Assembly: GCA_946478975.1 (NCBI GenBank)
Contig: CAMLEO010000106.1
Coordinates: 1 to 20,355 of the forward strand
Source of the DNA: an uncultured Steroidobacter sp.
GTDB lineage: Bacteria; Pseudomonadota; Gammaproteobacteria; Steroidobacterales; Steroidobacteraceae
DNA length: 20,355 bases
Direction: 5' to 3'
Shown: positions 993 to 17,722 of the stretch, one piece after another
How the letters are laid out: every line of letters begins with the position of its first letter
How positions within the stretch are numbered: position 1 is the first letter of the stretch
Notes under the pieces: model-generated
Told to the model about the DNA's origin: nothing
The model's database searches: none
Seen by the model: only the letters and a program-made list of their open reading frames with translations
Translations under genes and position numbers: made by a program

Positions 993-2331
993 GCAGCACG
1001 CCTTCGGCGATGTCGCGCAACAGACTGGGCGGCACAGCGCGATATTTCTCGCCCTGCTCCGCCTTGGCTGCAATCCATTGCGCGAGCCAGTCGATCTGTT
1101 CGCGGCCATAGAACACCACTGCGGCTTCGTGGTTCAACAGCAGGCTGCGCAGGTCCAGGTTGATGGAGCCGCACAGCGCCAATGTTTCATCGATGACGAC
1201 GCCCTTGGCGTGAATCATCGTCGGCAGCAACCGAAATTCCACGCCCGCAGCCGCGAGGTCTCGCATCGGCCGGGAACGCACGAAGTCGGCGAGCAGGTGA
1301 TTCGAGCGCTGAGGCAGCACGATCGTGACTTTCACACCTCGCCTCGCGGCCAGTCGCATGGCCGCTCGCAAGCTGTCATCGGGGACGAAATAGGGAGTGA
1401 CGATCAGCAGGCGGCGACGCGCTCGATAACAACCATCGATGAGCAGGGACTGCGCAGTATCCTCGACCTGATCGGGGCCGCTCGGCAGGAACTGCGCGAG
1501 CGTGCCGCCATCGATGGGCAAAGACTCGCGAGCGCGAATCGGCGTTCGCAGCTGGGTCGTATTCCAATCGAGATCGAACTGATGTCCGGCCGCCGCAGCC
1601 ACCGGCCCGCGCAAATCGAAAGAAAGATCGGACCAGACTGCGCCGGCGGAATCGCCGAGGAAATATTCGCCGGCCAGATTGCGACCGCCGCTCCAGAGAC
1701 AGCAGTCGTCGGCGACGACGAGCTTGCGATGATTGCGCAGGTTCCGTGGCCCCAGGCGACGCAGGCTCAAGAAAGGTCGAAAGACGGCGACCTGCACGCC
1801 GGCGCTGTTCAATTCGCGAATGTATTTGCCAGGCACCAATAACGCGAAGAAGCCATCGAGCAGCAGACGAACCTTCACGCCGTCGGCGGCTTTACGCACC
1901 AGGCGAGCGACGACGTCACGACCGAACTCGTCGCTGCCGATGATGAACGTGCTGATGTCGAGCGTGCGTTGCGCGCCGTCGATGACTCGATACAACGCCT
2001 CGCGGGCCTGCTCGCCGTCGGCGTGCATTTGAACCGTGCATGTCGAAGGCGGTGCGAGCCCGAAACTCTCGATCAACTCCGCCGCCCAATGCGGCCCTTC
2101 GACCACGACGCCCGAATAGGGGATGGCAACGGGCTGCAACTTCCGCTGCCCGAACAACAAATACAGCGGCAGCATCACGTAAGGAACGAGCGCGAGGCCC
2201 AGTACCCAGGCGATCGCCGCCGTCGGCGCCCGACGCTGGTCGCGAGCGCGGCTGGTCAGGATGTAGACGAGAAGCGCGATGGCACTGACGAGGAAGTGCT
2301 GCGATGGAGTGGGCAGCCAATCGACGATCAT
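970..2331 (-). CDS. cls: Cardiolipin synthase-like phospholipase D family protein
   Basis: The 453-residue protein has two N-terminal membrane helices (about 10-27 and 38-60), followed by two phospholipase D domains. The two HKD catalytic motifs are intact: H201-x-K203-x4-D208 (HRKLVVAD, followed by GGRN) and H374-x-K376-x4-D381 (IHAKGVVID, followed by GSINLDLRS). The block TPYFVPDDSLRAAMRLAARRG before the second motif is typical of bacterial cardiolipin synthases, which join phosphatidyl groups to make cardiolipin at the inner membrane. Length and layout match the Cls family. A broader membrane-anchored PLD enzyme cannot be ruled out, so the symbol is a family-level call. The ribosome binding site is weak (AGG close to the ATG). 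The 3' end overlaps the convergent response regulator by 23 bp. Confidence 0.82.
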   Translation of the reverse strand: MIVDWLPTPSQHFLVSAIALLVYILTSRARDQRRAPTAAIAWVLGLALVPYVMLPLYLLFGQRKLQPVAIPYSGVVVEGPHWAAELIESFGLAPPSTCTVQMHADGEQAREALYRVIDGAQRTLDISTFIIGSDEFGRDVVARLVRKAADGVKVRLLLDGFFALLVPGKYIRELNSAGVQVAVFRPFLSLRRLGPRNLRNHRKLVVADDCCLWSGGRNLAGEYFLGDSAGAVWSDLSFDLRGPVAAAAGHQFDLDWNTTQLRTPIRARESLPIDGGTLAQFLPSGPDQVEDTAQSLLIDGCYRARRRLLIVTPYFVPDDSLRAAMRLAARRGVKVTIVLPQRSNHLLADFVRSRPMRDLAAAGVEFRLLPTMIHAKGVVIDETLALCGSINLDLRSLLLNHEAAVVFYGREQIDWLAQWIAAKAEQGEKYRAVPPSLLRDIAEGVLLTVAFQL

Positions 2332-11773: not shown

Positions 11774-11865
11774 CTGCGACTCCCCCTGCGCAATCGGTGC
11801 GAAAAGTCTACGCGCGCGCACGCCTCCGGGGAACTCACAAAAGAGGGGGCATTTGCAAATATACG

Positions 11866-11880
11866 GTCCGACAGTTGGAC
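11866..11880. promoter_or_regulatory. Palindromic operator candidate in the alkB/pirin promoter region
   Basis: GTCCGACAGTTGGAC is a 15-bp dyad with a single central base and one mismatch between 7-bp arms. It lies in the 197-bp divergent gap, 92 bp upstream of the alkB start and 90 bp upstream of the pirin start. A TATATT hexamer on the minus strand (about 11857-11862) could be an alkB -10 element next to it. The shape suits a TetR-type or similar dimeric repressor, but no such gene adjoins. Confidence 0.45.
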
Positions 11881-11970
11881 ACATGCGCGCCCGATCCGTG
11901 CCGCTGTGTGATAAATGTCATGCCTTGCGGCCCGCAGATCCGCCGCCATAACGGTGGCAGGATGCACACC

Positions 11971-12873
11971 ATGAACACCAATCCTTCAGCTTCCAGTATT
12001 CGCCCGGTCGCACGGCTGGTGCAGTCCCTCAGCACCGTCGAAGGCGGCGGCTTTCCGGTGCGCCGGCCGTTTCCGATTCAGGGCTTCAGTCACTTCGATC
12101 CGTTTTTGCTGATCGATCACCTGGGCCCGGTGACCTGGCCGGCCGGCGGCCCCATCGGCGCGCCCGATCATCCGCATCGCGGGTTCGAGACGGTCACCTA
12201 TGTGCTGGCCGGTGAGAACGAGCATCGCGATTCGTTCGGCAATGCCGATGTGCTGCGTCCGGGTGACGTGCAGTGGATGACGGCCGGTGGCGGCGTGATT
12301 CATTCGGAGATGCCGACGAATGCATTCAAGCGCAGCGGCGGTTTGCAGGAAGGTTTCCAGATTTGGGTGAACCTGCCGGCGGCCGACAAGATGATGACGC
12401 CGCGATATCAAACATTGCGGGCGACGGATATTCCGCAGGTCACTGCGGATGACGGCCGCGTGCACGTGCGGGTCATCGCGGGTGAGTCGCTAGGCAAGTC
12501 GGCGAGGATCGATACGCGAGTGCCGATTCAGATGCTTCACTTCACCGTGAAGCCGGGCGGATCGCTCGTGCAGTCGGTGCCTGCGGAGCAGAGTGGGCTC
12601 ATGTATGTGTTCCGAGGCACGGCTACGATCGGTAGCGATGAGCGCGCTGTTTCTGAGGGCCAGGCGGCGCTGCTCGGCTCGGGTAATGCGGTGAGCATTC
12701 GCGTCACTGAGAATGCGACGACGCCGGCGGAGATTCTGCTGCTGTCGGGCAAGCCGTTGCACGAGCCGGTCGCGAGATACGGGCCGTTCGTGATGAACAC
12801 CCGGGAGGAGATCGAGCAGGCGTTCCGGGATTATCAGAGCGGAAGGTTTGGGTTGATTCCGCCCCGTGTTTGA
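11971..12873 (+). CDS. Pirin family protein
   Basis: The 300-residue protein is a bicupin. The N-terminal cupin carries the pirin metal ligands H67 and H69 (DHPHRGFETVTYVL), H111 and E113 (GGGVIHSEMP). The pattern GFxxFDPFLLIDHLGP and APDHPHRGFET is diagnostic. The C-terminal cupin (about 175-290) includes HFTVKPGGSLVQSVPAEQSGLMYVF and FVMNTREEIEQAFRDYQSGRFG, the usual pirin ending. Bacterial pirins bind iron; some have quercetin 2,3-dioxygenase activity and others act as regulators, and which applies is not clear. Two in-frame ATGs lie at 11962 and 11971; the second has AGGA at 8 bp and is chosen. The gene is divergent from alkB. A long inverted-repeat element follows its stop codon. Confidence 0.92.
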   Translation: MNTNPSASSIRPVARLVQSLSTVEGGGFPVRRPFPIQGFSHFDPFLLIDHLGPVTWPAGGPIGAPDHPHRGFETVTYVLAGENEHRDSFGNADVLRPGDVQWMTAGGGVIHSEMPTNAFKRSGGLQEGFQIWVNLPAADKMMTPRYQTLRATDIPQVTADDGRVHVRVIAGESLGKSARIDTRVPIQMLHFTVKPGGSLVQSVPAEQSGLMYVFRGTATIGSDERAVSEGQAALLGSGNAVSIRVTENATTPAEILLLSGKPLHEPVARYGPFVMNTREEIEQAFRDYQSGRFGLIPPRV

Positions 12874-12902
12874 AGACTGCGCGATCGTTAGTTCAGTGGC
12901 TC

Positions 12903-13060
12903 GCGAAGGCCAGTGCGGGGTGTGCGCTTTCCGGCACCGCGCACGGGCCTTGTCCACGCTAAACGCGTGGACCGTATTCCGTCCGTCCCTGGAGCGCTGC
13001 TGGAGAAAGGTCCCTCTTTCTCAAGCTGCCGAAAGCGCACACCCCTCCCTGGCCTTCGCC
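12903..13060. repeat. Long structured inverted-repeat element (possible structured RNA or palindromic mobile element)
   Basis: The outer arms are 12903-12936 and 13027-13059. They pair as 10 contiguous bp (12903-12912 with 13050-13059), then a short patch with two mismatches, then 15 contiguous bp (12917-12931 with 13031-13045), then one bulged C and 4 more bp: about 31 pairs in all. The roughly 90-base interior holds two more perfect hairpins: GTCCACGC/GCGTGGAC with a 5-base loop (12952-12972) and GAGAAAG/CTTTCTC with a 6-base loop (13003-13022). It lies in the 232-bp gap between the convergent pirin and peptidase genes and codes for nothing convincing. No T run follows, so it is not a standard terminator. 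It may be a structured RNA, a dispersed palindromic element of MITE or REP type, or an mRNA-end stabiliser. Confidence 0.75.
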
Positions 13061-13105
13061 GAAGCGGCGTGGAACGTTTAACGCAGCCTCGCGGCAGCGC
13101 TGAAC

Positions 13106-16100
13106 CTACGTCTTGGCGCTCGATTCTTCTTCCATGTCGACCGTCTTCCGGTTGTCATCAGGCATACGGTCGATGAGCTTGTTGTACGGATCGAAGCCCA
13201 CGTCGTACGGCGGCTCGTCGACAGTGACCTTGATCGTGCCGTGGGCTTGCGTGATGTGCTGGCGCTCCAGGTAGAGGGGCTTTTCACTGCGCTCCTCTTC
13301 ATCCGCACCTCGCGCGAACACGCCGACTTCGATCCAATCGTCGACCGGAAGATCCGTCTCGCGGCCCAGCCCGTCGCTCTCACGCTTGGCAGCCGCGTAC
13401 TCAATCGTCACATCGTACTTTCCATCGTGCGGCGTCACCGTCGTCGCGACGACGCGGTTGTCGTAGAAGATGATCTTGGCAAACAGCTCATCGATGAGCT
13501 TGAGCTTGTCCGGCTGCGTCTGCGCGCGGATGTAATCGAGCAGTTCAACAGTCGTCGTATACGGCGGCTGTTGATACGCCTTGTCGCGAATGTAATTCGC
13601 CAGCGCACGATTCAAATTCTCCTCGCCGATCTCATCGCGCAGCCGATACAACACGAGCGAGCCCTTGGAGTAATGAATGTACCCCTGATCCTCCACTCGC
13701 ATCAGCGGCAGCTCCTCCACCAGCTCGCCGCCGCGGCCTCGCAGGTAACGATCGAGCTCATAGCGCAGGAAGCGGCGCATGTGCTCGCGGCCGTACTCCT
13801 TCTCCATGACCATCAACGCCGAGTACTGCGAGAGCGATTCCATGATCAGGTTCTGACCCTGCACGCCCGCACCGACGACCTGGTGACCCCACCACTGGTG
13901 CGCCATCTCATGCGCAGTGACATAGAAAACATAGTCGACGTCGTTCTTCGGATTGCGCACGTCGGCGATGAAGCCGATGCCCTCCGAGTACGGAATCGTG
14001 TTCGCAAAGCTCTGCGCGAAGCGGGCGTAGCGCGGAAACTCCAGGATGCGCACCTGCCGATGCTGGTACGGCGAGAAGTTGGCGCTGTAGTAGTCGAGCG
14101 ACTTGCGGGTCGCTTCGATCATGCGAGCGACGTTATATGCGTGCTTCGGATCGTGATAGATCTCGATGGGCAGGCCGTGCCACTCACCACGCGTCACCTG
14201 CCAGCGCGCCGACAGGAAGCAGTAGAACGGCAGCATCGGCCGATCCATCTTGTAATGGAAATAGTGCCGGCCGTTCTCGGTCCACTCGCGCTGCAGATAT
14301 CCGGGCGCGAGCGCGATCTGATCGTCGCTGGTGCTCACCGTCGCTTCGAAATTGATCCAATCGGAGTCGACCATGCCCATGTCATAGCGCGCCTTCTCAT
14401 CTTCGAGCTTGGGCATGCGCGGCACATCGCCCAGATCGCGTTTGCGGCGTTCGTTACGATCGATGATCTGCCGCGACTGGTCGTAGCCGAAGCGGGGTAA
14501 TTCGCCGTTGTTGAAGAACGTGCCGTTATGATTCAGCGTCGAACGCATCAATTCGACGCCCGTGGATGGAGGCATGCCGGTGTTGGTGAAGCCGCGCTGC
14601 TCACGCTCCCAAGTAAAGTCGAAATCCATCGACGCGCCCGGCGCCAGCGGCTCACGCAGCTTATAAATATGCAGCCCGGCTAGCGGATCATGCAGACGAA
14701 GCTCCATGCCCGCCGGCGCGACGACATCCAACTGCGCCGCGGGGTGCGTGTAAACATGCAGCTCCGGAATCGGCACGTCGTGCGTGTTCTCGATTCGGTA
14801 GTGGCCACGGATCACCGCGCGACGCTGCTCGGGGAAGATGTCGACATCGGTCCGTACATCGCGGATGCGAGGCTGCGGCAGGTCGATGAACTTGCGATAT
14901 TCCTTTTCCAGATGCGCCTGACGATCGAGCATCACATCCTTGGGCACATACTCATTGATCACATTGGTGTTGTAGAAGATCCAGACGCCGACGGCGATGA
15001 ACGCGATCGCGAGCGTGCCGAGCATCGCGGCTTGCGGGCCACGCAAGCTGCGCATTGCATGCTTCCAGCGCTGTTTCCAACGCGATGAGGTGCCACGGAC
15101 CCAGAACGCACCGGCCAGCACAACCAGCATCGCCGAGAACAGCGACCAATAGATATTGAACCAGACCCACGGCGCGAGGCGCGGGCCGAAGCCGTCCATG
15201 TCCGAAATTCTCATGTCGGGCGAGCCGCCGAAGATGTACAGGTTGTGCTCGTAGCCCATCGCGGCGTGCGTGATCTGCGCCAGCAATCCGACGATCAACA
15301 GCAGGTAACCAACAAACTTTTGGTTGCTGATGACCTGCAGGAACAACGCCAGCACGCCCATCAGGATGTAGAACACCGAATCGGCCAGCGCCGCGCGCAG
15401 ATACAGCCCGAGTTCGAGATTGGTGTAGCCCTGCGTCAGCTGATTTCCTATTGCTGCTACGACGCCGACGCCCATGAACACGAGCACGACAGCGGTGACC
15501 GCGCCGACTTTCGCCAGCATCGGCACCCAGTTCGGCACCGGCGAGGAATCCGTCACCTCGGCAAGCTTCGCATCGCGCTCCCGCCACAACAGGTCGCCGG
15601 CGTAAAAGCCGATCACAAACACCAGCAGGAACTGATAAGTGCCCTGCATGGCCTGCATCATCAGCGCCGTCACGGGATAGATCGGCGTACCGAACGAGGA
15701 GGTGTCGATGGTGCGCGAGCTGACGATGAAATTCAGCAGACCGAACGCCAGCAACACCAGGAATGGCAGGCTCTTCAATACATACCTGGTGTCGAACCAG
15801 AGCAGATGCGTCAACTGCCGCAGGGCGGCGCTCACATCAAACGTTCGATTGCCAGCAACGACCGGACGCGCAGTCGTCGTGCGAACCGGCTGTGCGACCG
15901 TGTCAACTACGAGCGCCGCACCTTTGCGATGCCACCAACGTTTCTTGGTCCGCTGCCGCTGCGACTGAAACATCAGCTGCGCAGCGACCAGCATGACGAC
16001 GCCCGAGCCCATCCAGATCGCCCGGTTCGTCAACACCAGGCCGCTGATCTCCGGCAGTCGGGTGTTACGTTCCGTCACCGACCAATAGCGCATCACGCGA

Positions 16101-16750
16101 GTCGCGGCTTCGATTCCGAACGGATCGATCACCGAGGCGACCGTGTCGTATTTGATATCCACCATCAGCGACTGCGCGACCGCATACAAAACAAAGAACG
16201 CGATCACACCGAGGAACACCATCAGCAGCCGTCGCGTCGTCACTGCGAGCAGGCTCAGCAGCGCGCCGACGAACAGCAGGTTGGGAATGATGATGATCCC
16301 GAAGCCCCACAGGTACGGGCCCCACGAGAACGGCCCGAGCCGCTGCGGATCCAGCCAGGGCATGAACGAGCCGAGGATCATGCCACCGGCCGTGAGCACG
16401 AACACCATCAATCCGATCACGATGCCGGCCAGGAACCGGCCCCACAAATAACTGGCCTTGCTCATCGGCGTGCTGAAGAACAACTCTTCGGTGCGCAGTT
16501 CGAAGTCTCGCAGCAGCGGCTGCGCCGAGAATGCGAGCGCCACGAGCATGCCGAGCGTGGAGAACACGCCCAAGAATTGCAGAATCACGGAGGGCGCATT
16601 GCGGTTGACGTTACCGATGCCTTCACCGACGGTGATGATGTCCGTCGTGGTCGCGGCGAATGCAAACAATGCGAAGGCAAATGCGAGCACCCAGACCAGC
16701 GGGCTACGCAGTTGATAACGCAGTTCGAAGCTGAAGAATTCCCGAAACAT
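13106..16750 (-). CDS. ABC-2 permease fused to M1-family metallopeptidase domain
   Basis: This 1214-residue protein has two ABC-2-type permease halves, the first from residue 1 (FREFFSFELRYQLRSPLVWVLAFAF, about six helices to 270) and the second from about 315 (LTHLLWFDTRYVLKSLPFLVLLAFGLLNFIV, to about 590), followed by an M1/gluzincin domain (about 620-1190). The zinc site is H947-E948-x-x-H951 in HEMAHQWWGHQ, with E971 in MESLSQYSALMVMEKEYG as the third ligand, 19 residues after H951 rather than the 18 seen in classical M1 enzymes. The exopeptidase GAMEN motif is not visible; SFANTIPYSEGIGF stands in that region. The ATPase gene is 23 bp upstream on the same strand. The design suggests a periplasmic peptidase tied to a transport machine; the substrate is unknown. 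Confidence 0.92.
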   Translation of the reverse strand: MFREFFSFELRYQLRSPLVWVLAFAFALFAFAATTTDIITVGEGIGNVNRNAPSVILQFLGVFSTLGMLVALAFSAQPLLRDFELRTEELFFSTPMSKASYLWGRFLAGIVIGLMVFVLTAGGMILGSFMPWLDPQRLGPFSWGPYLWGFGIIIIPNLLFVGALLSLLAVTTRRLLMVFLGVIAFFVLYAVAQSLMVDIKYDTVASVIDPFGIEAATRVMRYWSVTERNTRLPEISGLVLTNRAIWMGSGVVMLVAAQLMFQSQRQRTKKRWWHRKGAALVVDTVAQPVRTTTARPVVAGNRTFDVSAALRQLTHLLWFDTRYVLKSLPFLVLLAFGLLNFIVSSRTIDTSSFGTPIYPVTALMMQAMQGTYQFLLVFVIGFYAGDLLWRERDAKLAEVTDSSPVPNWVPMLAKVGAVTAVVLVFMGVGVVAAIGNQLTQGYTNLELGLYLRAALADSVFYILMGVLALFLQVISNQKFVGYLLLIVGLLAQITHAAMGYEHNLYIFGGSPDMRISDMDGFGPRLAPWVWFNIYWSLFSAMLVVLAGAFWVRGTSSRWKQRWKHAMRSLRGPQAAMLGTLAIAFIAVGVWIFYNTNVINEYVPKDVMLDRQAHLEKEYRKFIDLPQPRIRDVRTDVDIFPEQRRAVIRGHYRIENTHDVPIPELHVYTHPAAQLDVVAPAGMELRLHDPLAGLHIYKLREPLAPGASMDFDFTWEREQRGFTNTGMPPSTGVELMRSTLNHNGTFFNNGELPRFGYDQSRQIIDRNERRKRDLGDVPRMPKLEDEKARYDMGMVDSDWINFEATVSTSDDQIALAPGYLQREWTENGRHYFHYKMDRPMLPFYCFLSARWQVTRGEWHGLPIEIYHDPKHAYNVARMIEATRKSLDYYSANFSPYQHRQVRILEFPRYARFAQSFANTIPYSEGIGFIADVRNPKNDVDYVFYVTAHEMAHQWWGHQVVGAGVQGQNLIMESLSQYSALMVMEKEYGREHMRRFLRYELDRYLRGRGGELVEELPLMRVEDQGYIHYSKGSLVLYRLRDEIGEENLNRALANYIRDKAYQQPPYTTTVELLDYIRAQTQPDKLKLIDELFAKIIFYDNRVVATTVTPHDGKYDVTIEYAAAKRESDGLGRETDLPVDDWIEVGVFARGADEEERSEKPLYLERQHITQAHGTIKVTVDEPPYDVGFDPYNKLIDRMPDDNRKTVDMEEESSAKT

Positions 16751-16773: not shown

Positions 16774-17661
16774 TTACGCGACGTGAGCCGAAGCCGCACC
16801 GTGCTGGCGCAGCCGATGGAAATAAACATCCTCGAGATCCGGATCGATCGCGGCGAAGCCGTCTTCGGGCCGCGAATCGCTATAGATATGAATCAGCGGC
16901 TGACCGCCGATCAATCGTGTCGACAGCACCGTGTAGCGCGACTGGTACTCCGGCAGCGCTGCCTTGTTGACCAGCTTGCTCCACACTCGTTCGCGCATGG
17001 CCGCGATTGCTTCACGCGGCTCGCCGCTCATGAGCACCTGGCCGCGACAGATCATCGCCATGCGGGGACACAAATCGGTGACATCCTCGACGATGTGCGT
17101 CGACAGGATCACGACCACCTGGCTGCCGATGTCCGCCAGCAGATTCAGGAAACGATTGCGCTCTTCCGGATCGAGGCCGGCGGTGGGCTCGTCGACGATC
17201 ACGAGCTTGGGATTGCCGATCAACGCCTGCGCGATGCCGAAGCGCTGGCGCATGCCGCCGGAGAAGGTGCCGAGCTTGCGCTTGCGCACGTCCCAAAGGT
17301 TCACTTGTTTGAGCAGCGCTTCGACCGCATCGACACGCTCGCCTTTATTCACATAGCCTTTGAGCACGGCCAGGTGATCGAGCATGTCGAGCGCGCTCAC
17401 TTTCGGATACACGCCGAAGTCCTGCGGCAGATAGCCGAGCGTGCGGCGAATGGCGGATTTGTTTGCAACCACATCGATGTCGTTGAACACGATCGTGCCG
17501 GAGTCCGGATCCTGCAAGGTCGCGATGGTGCGCATCAGCGACGATTTGCCGGCGCCGTTCGGGCCCAGCAGACCAAACATTCCGGCCGGAATCTGCAGCG
17601 ACACGTCGCGCAGCGCCTGCACGTTTCCATAAGACTTCGACAAGTTGCGAATCGTAAGCAC
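16774..17661 (-). CDS. ABC transporter ATP-binding protein (GTG start)
   Basis: The 295-residue ATPase powers the adjacent permease-peptidase. It has Walker A GPNGAGKS (33-40), Q-loop Q80 in LGYLPQDFGVYP, signature FSGGMRQR (133-140), Walker B LVIVDEPTAGLDP (153-165, E158) and H-loop H189 in LSTHIVEDV. It belongs to the CcmA/ABC-2 exporter-type ATPases. An ATG at 17697 in frame would add 12 residues, but it has no ribosome site, whereas the GTG at 17661 has AAAGGGG at 17669-17675, 7 bp away, and puts the start at LTIRNLSKSYG. The C-terminal extension (about 215-295, ending in EDVYFHRLRQHG) is usual for this group. The next gene starts 23 bp downstream, so translation is probably coupled in one operon. 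Confidence 0.93.
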   Translation of the reverse strand: MLTIRNLSKSYGNVQALRDVSLQIPAGMFGLLGPNGAGKSSLMRTIATLQDPDSGTIVFNDIDVVANKSAIRRTLGYLPQDFGVYPKVSALDMLDHLAVLKGYVNKGERVDAVEALLKQVNLWDVRKRKLGTFSGGMRQRFGIAQALIGNPKLVIVDEPTAGLDPEERNRFLNLLADIGSQVVVILSTHIVEDVTDLCPRMAMICRGQVLMSGEPREAIAAMRERVWSKLVNKAALPEYQSRYTVLSTRLIGGQPLIHIYSDSRPEDGFAAIDPDLEDVYFHRLRQHGAASAHVA

Positions 17662-17668
17662 AGCACAG

Positions 17669-17675
17669 CCCCTTT
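17669..17675 (-). promoter_or_regulatory. Ribosome binding site deciding the GTG start of the ABC ATPase
   Basis: AAAGGGG on the minus strand, 7 bp before GTG at 17661-17659. The upstream ATG at 17697 lacks any purine-rich site, so the GTG is favoured. Confidence 0.55.
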
Positions 17676-17722
17676 GCGCCGAGGTCCGTCGGCGCATGCA
17701 GTCGTTTTGGAATTATTGGAAG

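Follow-up and report, generated by a model that had tools for sequence, protein, structure and literature searches.

The window analysed here, a 20,355-nt stretch of DNA from an uncultured Steroidobacter sp., contains a strongly self-complementary segment between two convergent genes, which raises the question of what kind of element it is. An earlier note on this DNA had offered a structured RNA, a dispersed palindromic element or a protective 3′ structure for both transcripts; loops of the CsrA type, found here on the minus strand, were absent from its list of readings.

Fold and surroundings of the window copy

The stretch at 12903–13060 is a real nested inverted repeat, understated in the original claim, and forms part of a larger element of ~180 nt. 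The element, its helices (P1 to P5) and the flanking genes are located as follows.

12886..13067, minus strand: whole element, approximate limits; ~180 nt, with ANGGA loops on the minus strand
12903..12936, unstranded: P1, left arm of the outer stem; pairs despite changes in sequence
12939..12942, unstranded: P2, left side of the junction stem (GCGC); relatives have GTGC/GCAC and GGGC/GCCC (by eye)
12944..12981, unstranded: P3, variable hairpin; 8-bp stem 12952–12959/12965–12972 plus an outer 4-bp stem
12982..12993, minus strand: P4 hairpin; loop AGGGAC (12990 to 12985), closed by C-G, a match to CANGGAYG
12994..12997, unstranded: P2, right side of the junction stem; pairs with 12939..12942
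12999..13026, minus strand: P5 hairpin; loop AGGGAC (13015 to 13010), closed by G-C in the window copy
13027..13060, unstranded: P1, right arm of the outer stem; pairs with 12903..12936
11797..12873, plus strand: pirin gene (PF02678/PF05726; ORF limits), ending upstream of the element
13106..16750, minus strand: ABC-2 permease/M1-peptidase fusion gene, convergent with pirin

Pairing of the outer arms was confirmed (12903–12931 with 13031–13059; 29 nt, 93% complementary, 99 nt between them) and extends in the fold to GGCA/TGCC (12933–12936 with 13027–13030). Both hairpins that had been named were exact (12952–12959/12965–12972, 8 bp; 13003–13009/13016–13022, 7 bp). Additionally, the fold contains a third hairpin, TCC-GTCCCT-GGA (12982–12993), and a junction stem, GCGC/GCGC (12939–12942 with 12994–12997), neither of which is in the earlier note. 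RNA folding of 12895–13070 gave −106.2 kcal/mol (z = −8.7) for the plus strand and −104.9 kcal/mol (z = −7.3) for the minus strand; none of 200 shuffled sequences folded equally well on either strand, in agreement with the view that this amount of pairing exceeds chance. The suggested alternative pairing of GGACCGTATTCCGTCC is possible locally, but is unsupported as a conserved fold because it competes with two hairpins kept in relatives by compensatory change.

The minus strand of the element lies downstream of the stop codon of the ABC/M1 fusion gene, in sense. The fusion protein (ABC-2 permease/M1-type peptidase, 1214 aa, encoded next to an ABC ATPase gene at 16774–17697, minus-strand fusion gene at 13106–16750) shares 71–73% identity over the best segment with Steroidobacter and Peristeroidobacter proteins; its best 80 relatives were mostly from Betaproteobacteria, with some from other phyla. 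For pirin, a start at 12019 was preferred by the codon model (ORF start 11797). Mechanical ORFs cross the element at 12913–13176 (plus) and 12490–12957 (minus); a codon-usage gene finder predicted no gene in it, consistent with the earlier judgement that convincing coding sequence is lacking. The reported absence of a T tract also held: an intrinsic terminator (GC-rich hairpin followed by a T run) was ruled out, since the sole terminator-like site found in 12600–13300 was at 13264, outside the element.

Distribution across genomes

BLAST searches with 12895–13070 returned dispersed matches in all four relatives (best E values 5.3e-15, 3.3e-5, 2.1e-6 and 1.9e-10). A structural model built from 18 copies (R1) matched the window at 12920–13041. 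When 150 candidates were scored in each of the 14 genomes of the genus-level group around G003, R1 had matches in 10 of them, with at least 39, 29, 24, 20 and 19 in the five richest relatives; with 60 candidates per genome and stricter filters, six of 60 wider-family genomes had matches. More distant carriers had a shorter form, ~85 nt in the model, from which hairpin P3 is missing. A second model built from 22 short copies (R2) found matches at E 1e-4 in at least 43 of 274 sampled Gammaproteobacteria genomes, with 16 candidates scored per genome and several genomes reaching 16/16. In G318, at least 136 R2 matches at E 1e-3 were obtained from 150 of 1,940 candidates scored. All copy numbers are minima, as limited candidates were scored per genome.

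The BLAST copies in relatives and the R1 and R2 matches across genomes bear out the suggestion of a dispersed palindromic element, and copies in relatives and in the wider Gammaproteobacteria rule out a local accident. It is near certain that the stretch in the window is one copy of a dispersed structured repeat family of Gammaproteobacteria.

Sequence conservation in 110 copies extended from about −34 to +19 around the model, weakly to +26, and was close to zero beyond. The pirin and ABC/M1 genes are convergent in four relatives also. At this slot no element was seen by eye in L001, L002 and L046; in L042 (Steroidobacter gossypii) a related copy without its 3′ half was seen by eye, and the R1 search of L042 reported no match.

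No Rfam model matched the whole window at gathering score, and around the element at E 5 only a snoRNA model was returned (E 1.7, under its gathering score). A blastn search of plasmids and phages with one core gave no match, and a 25-base core pattern had no exact match in viral contigs. In the full-text literature covered, mostly papers outside subscription, no description of the family was seen apart from a possible precedent in H. neapolitanus.

Conservation of base pairing

In the short form (97 copies, 95 distinct), 97.0% of pair cells held standard pairs vs 59.6% in shuffled data, both sides were changed in 1,098 cells vs 300, and the covariation score was 0.911 vs 0.205. The corresponding values for the long form (104 copies) were 88.0% vs 68.4%, 702 vs 206 cells and 0.463 vs 0.135. 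Paired-cell and covariation values were reached by none of 500 shuffles in either form, and shifting the partners by 1 to 3 columns lowered every measure. The count of pair types, one of five measures, did not rise above shuffles (90 vs 94.6 and 70 vs 69.0). The alignments were made by the models themselves and are biased toward structure, but the controls were nonetheless far apart, and near-perfect stems of differing sequence were also visible by eye among copies. Other copies and covariation, whose absence had been named in the earlier note as grounds for dismissing the structure, were both found.

Pairing in the 104 long copies differed by helix, with 98.2% of cells paired in P1, 84.2% in P3, 73.7% in P4, 96.1% in the outer two and 65.4% in the inner two pairs of P2, and 91.0% in the outer and 59.3% in the inner stem of P5; this unevenness is partly a matter of register or misalignment, since subfamilies differ in length there. 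When L258 and L283 (G134) were compared by eye, a block of about seven bases had changed in both arms together without loss of pairing, a change that seems larger than single compensatory mutations would give.

Strand preference

Isolated mismatches in P1 flanked by Watson-Crick pairs were, on the plus strand, A.C in 90 cases vs G.T in 14 after crude repeat removal, and 27 vs 14 when each position and type was counted once. An A.C on the plus strand corresponds to a G.U on the minus strand, so the wobbles are biased toward the minus (ANGGAY) strand. Wobble cells across the whole structure also favoured the minus strand (30 vs 12 in A6, 64 vs 38 in A7), with the reservation that wobble counts are not independent, copies being related and a few positions holding many counts. 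Of 110 copies, 87 have the more stable fold on the minus strand, with a mean advantage of 5.2 kcal/mol; the window copy (12895–13070) is no more stable on that strand.

Collectively, these observations argue moderately for selection on one strand of ANGGAY sense, either RNA or single-stranded DNA. The ANGGAY strand is likely to be the acting one, and the sequence patterns favour a minus strand that acts as a single-stranded molecule, probably RNA. Of the earlier proposal of a structured RNA, the structure was established by covariation, and the strand asymmetry of G.U wobbles points to a single strand, probably RNA.

Loop motifs and CsrA

On the minus strand the loops of P4 and P5 both read C-ANGGAY-G, in which A and GGA hardly vary and N is free or missing. 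Among 95 distinct short copies, the P4 loop had A in 95, G, U or C at N in 61, 33 and one, respectively, the following G, G and A in 95, 94 and 93, and a closing pair with C in 94 and G in 94. In P5 of the short copies A was present in 93 of 95, N was G in 57, U in 15, A in four and C in one and was missing in 18 (giving CAGGAYG), and both GGA and the closing C-G were found in 95/95. P4 of 104 long copies was similar (A in 104; N = G in 52, U in 45, A in 5, C in 2; the two Gs in 104 and 103; final A in 104). These column profiles did not take GGA as a starting point, though the models contain the motif. A strict count, which demanded at least three Watson-Crick closing pairs and is the only measure of P5 loops for long copies, identified at least two loops in 57 of 113 copies and a single one in 28, the other 28 having none; GGA in this count is there by construction, as TCC was taken as the starting point.

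The ANGGAY loops fit, at the level of sequence, the published consensus for CsrA/RsmE, given in the available text of PMC6692469 as RUACARGGAUGU for E. coli CsrA (SELEX) and (A/U)CANGGANG(U/A) for RsmE; the P4 context of the short form, CUACAGGGAUGUA, agrees with the former at 11 of 12 positions. According to the relevant passages of two further papers, ANGGA is the motif used for CsrA target prediction (PMC9788540), and CsrA sites are generally paired because the protein is a dimer (PMC4333381). Short copies carry ANGGA in hairpin loops at two sites per molecule.

A CsrA gene (PF02599) was present in 10 of 11 carrier genomes, the sole exception, G066, being a fragmented 3.6-Mb assembly with contig numbers up to C545. 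As CsrA is common in Gammaproteobacteria, its presence in the carriers lends weak support. Judged by the loops, CsrA/RsmA is a candidate ligand and, on balance, a probable one.

Position relative to genes

With a simple codon-usage gene finder, no predicted gene overlapped any of the 113 distinct R1 copies, of which two were short forms; 51 copies were convergent, 53 tandem, four divergent and five at edges, and the 91 classifiable clusters of copies comprised 46 convergent, 42 tandem and three divergent. In tandem settings the ANGGAY strand was sense in 28 copies and antisense in 25, which gives no sign of a strand-specific role in the mRNA of the neighbouring gene. No conserved promoter was found within 120 nt of 110 copies.

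Among 96 short forms, for which gene models were poorer, 20 were convergent, 38 tandem, 23 divergent, 12 gene-overlapping and three at edges, and a small sample of 20 copies from G318 included 13 tandem, four divergent, one convergent and two edge positions. The short forms thus have no preference for gene ends, and divergent promoters are avoided in the Steroidobacter group but not by the family as a whole. A protective 3′ structure shared by the two transcripts would suit copies of that group, given their position at gene ends, but not the short forms.

One copy, at 1501–1618 (minus) of L124, lies ~220 nt downstream of an RNase P RNA gene (902–1282, plus), and the same slot is also occupied in two other genomes (L224 and L217).

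Arms, cores and ends of the copies

At 17 loci two copies lay inverted, 129–510 bp apart, with no predicted gene between them (L131, L173, L189, L167, L162, L184, L186, L190, L170, L217, L160, L227, L203, L209, L175, L223 and L200). The DNA enclosed by inverted pairs is non-coding and partly repetitive. Several contigs of G001, G002 and G064 start within copies. Beside some copies (L089/L131, L087) a 5′ flank motif, GGAGGCGTCGGTGGTTSGC, was seen by eye in tandem with a period of ~26–27 nt, as though it formed a separate repeat.

Sixteen intergenic slots were occupied in at least two of five genomes (104 loci examined), and the ten single-copy slots among them were aligned and judged by eye, the six with inverted pairs being left out. 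In four of the ten (L101/L155, L191/L156, L215/L169 and L199/L198) the arms were largely shared and the core belonged to another subfamily, the core of L215/L169 being inverted as well. Core orientation differed in L142/L179/L212 and in L112/L192/L134, with arms only partly alike; the arms of L161 and L166 differed, and L107/L132 retained the arms and most of the core. These patterns would fit exchange of cores by recombination between copies, together with inversion between the arms of one copy. Inversion of a core between its own arms would help explain the missing orientation preference.

The arms of 18 copies in G158 were no more alike than shuffled ones (0.39 vs 0.37), yet they pair over 10–34 bp; arms were partly alike (0.44–0.68 vs 0.26–0.36 shuffled) in five other genomes, each with 3 to 7 copies. 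Seven of 17 other places in G158 matched the query over 58–66 nt at 94–100%, and the remaining places had longer or more diverged matching stretches. The 20 copies fetched from G318 were near-identical, ~165 bp long and MITE-like, and their sharp ends read TATACCC...GGGTATA next to TA. In G158 a conserved terminal repeat was not seen, and the ends of Steroidobacter copies (GGCGTCGGTGG..) were weakly conserved. As many of the 136 matches in G318 had identical scores, this version was probably active recently.

Among hairpins of the fetched loci whose stems reach 16 bp or more, the twin-loop core, recognised by motif, was present in 80 of 85 cases in the Steroidobacter group and 54 of 60 elsewhere; three and two of the remaining long hairpins coincided with model hits by coordinates, leaving two and four without a core. 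Core-less long palindromes are thus rare in these loci, which were chosen for carrying copies, and insertion into ready-made palindromes was not favoured. In relatives of G308, the DNA that flanks the query is matched with some 64–78% identity, and the element-bearing intergenic stretch of G308 had no match when searched against the relatives' loci L329–L342.

Comparison with known elements and competing explanations

CsrA decoy RNAs (CsrB, CsrC, RsmX/Y/Z) come from a small number of dedicated sRNA genes, each holding many sites. The element differs from them in its two sites on a long stem, its many loci and its lack of a conserved promoter. It resembles them in its paired hairpins, whose small loops contain GGA, in the published descriptions typically as A(N)GGA (PMC4333381, PMC6692469). 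A further likeness is to TwoAYGGAY (Rfam RF01731, and the reverse complement of Bacillaceae-1), with two hairpins and AYGGAY-type loops; in the sections of PMC4333381 that treat it, CsrA binding is proposed from the motif, and Clostridia are discussed with dispersed high-copy behaviour unmentioned. The RF01731 covariance model gave no match to the window at 12850–13110 (E 5) or to 20 loci (E 1), and a pyrimidine N, as in AYGGAY, is the minority state here (34 of 95 P4 loops and 16 of the 77 P5 loops having N).

High-copy extragenic palindromes and inverted pairs are shared with REP/REPIN sequences and CGTC-tagged REPs, and the gene-end bias of REPs recurs in the Steroidobacter group only. Unlike REPs (20–40 bp), the element is much longer, with a multibranch core and both loops in the same sense. 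A head-to-head or tail-to-tail REP dimer (GTAG or CGTC) was rejected because both loops are ANGGAY on one strand in nearly all of the 95 short copies. Like MITEs (Correia elements/NEMIS, RUP), the copies are short non-coding folding repeats, in G318 with TATACCC/GGGTATA ends and flanking TA; unlike MITEs, those in G158 have no conserved terminal repeat and unrelated arms, the arms being partly alike in five other genomes. By analogy, the element would work like a paired CsrA-site RNA (TwoAYGGAY, Rsm RNAs) placed on a dispersed palindrome.

We lean, with a little more than even confidence, toward a dispersed palindromic element that carries a paired CsrA-binding RNA module, with binding, transcription and mobilisation all putative. 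The element would be transcribed, e.g. as the tail of a neighbouring mRNA, exposing the ANGGAY loops, and the two loops would bind both faces of a CsrA/RsmA dimer. Copies may jointly serve as a distributed decoy or as local anchors for CsrA, while cores would be exchanged between copies by ectopic recombination and could flip between their own arms. A mobile decoy tuning the Csr system is possible. The most elaborate form of this reading, a mobile regulatory RNA module whose transposable apex, with its CsrA/RsmA dimer site, has been copied to tens or hundreds of places per genome, acquires new self-complementary stems at new sites, flips between its own arms, and collectively sets the level of free CsrA/RsmA, we regard as rather unlikely.

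The loops and the strand bias could instead reflect a transposase or recombinase that recognises one folded DNA strand, the repeat being a selfish palindrome at the DNA level (REP- or MITE-like). High copy number, the near-identical, sharp-ended G318 copies with their TATACCC/GGGTATA termini, the inverted pairs 129–510 bp apart at 17 loci, and the lack of both a conserved promoter and an orientation preference to genes would all suit such an element. No RAYT/Y1 transposase (PF01797) was found in the 11 carrier genomes searched, a set that does not include G318, G158 or the other genomes of the R2 survey, with 5 of 14 controls positive, which rules out a RAYT-mobilised REP for those 11. Moreover, the outer arms, which would be the natural recognition ends, are unrelated in G158 (0.39 vs 0.37) and partly alike in five genomes, and the loop keeps A and GGA while freeing or dropping N, a pattern known for CsrA in the published descriptions at hand. 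A selfish palindrome strikes us as possible but doubtful. A structure at 3′ ends that terminates or protects flanking transcripts with no specific ligand would account for the very stable fold, for the absence of all 113 R1 copies from genes and for the few divergent clusters (3 of 91, vs 46 convergent), but it leaves the near-invariant ANGGAY loops of two hairpins unexplained, the window copy has no T tract, and short forms are divergent in 23, convergent in 20 and tandem in 38 of 96 cases; we consider it very unlikely.

Also quite unlikely, in our judgement, is membership of a superfamily of CGTC-tagged REPs, with heterodimers inside palindromes as in H. neapolitanus, which we take to be a gammaproteobacterium of the genus Halothiobacillus. 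PMC3733652 describes the CGTC-1 dimers there as heterodimers without exception, lying within 41-bp palindromes whose right arm adjoins the tract attcacg; palindromes of this kind are not found without a dimer. Many short forms have ATTCACG at the corresponding place on the minus strand (the long form in the window does not), and a core is present in most of the long palindromes among the fetched loci; because ATTCACG stands at the same place, the H. neapolitanus dimers, compared by their description, may themselves be members of the present family. REP dimers are mostly head-to-head and some tail-to-tail, so their loops would be complementary, whereas here both ANGGAY loops lie on the same strand. 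In addition, stems of 8–9 bp with CGTC and a CCA tail were not recognised by eye, and a pattern taken from the published consensus tract was absent from the 342 loci.

Implications

The nearest precedent for this family in the print sources available is the remark on CGTC-1 dimers in H. neapolitanus (PMC3733652). Such elements would go unnoticed in annotation, as neither the window nor the 20 loci compared with Rfam gave a match to any of its models. The family is a natural experiment in which long palindromes change sequence yet stay paired, and in alignable slots of the Steroidobacter group the arms often appear shared, with the core differing. CsrA is a global regulator, and its decoy RNAs normally come from few dedicated genes. 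If the paired CsrA-binding module is real, a repeat family spreading this double loop would be a new route for selfish DNA to meet, and perhaps rewire, a global RNA-binding protein; in the most elaborate reading, gain or loss of copies would retune the Csr system.
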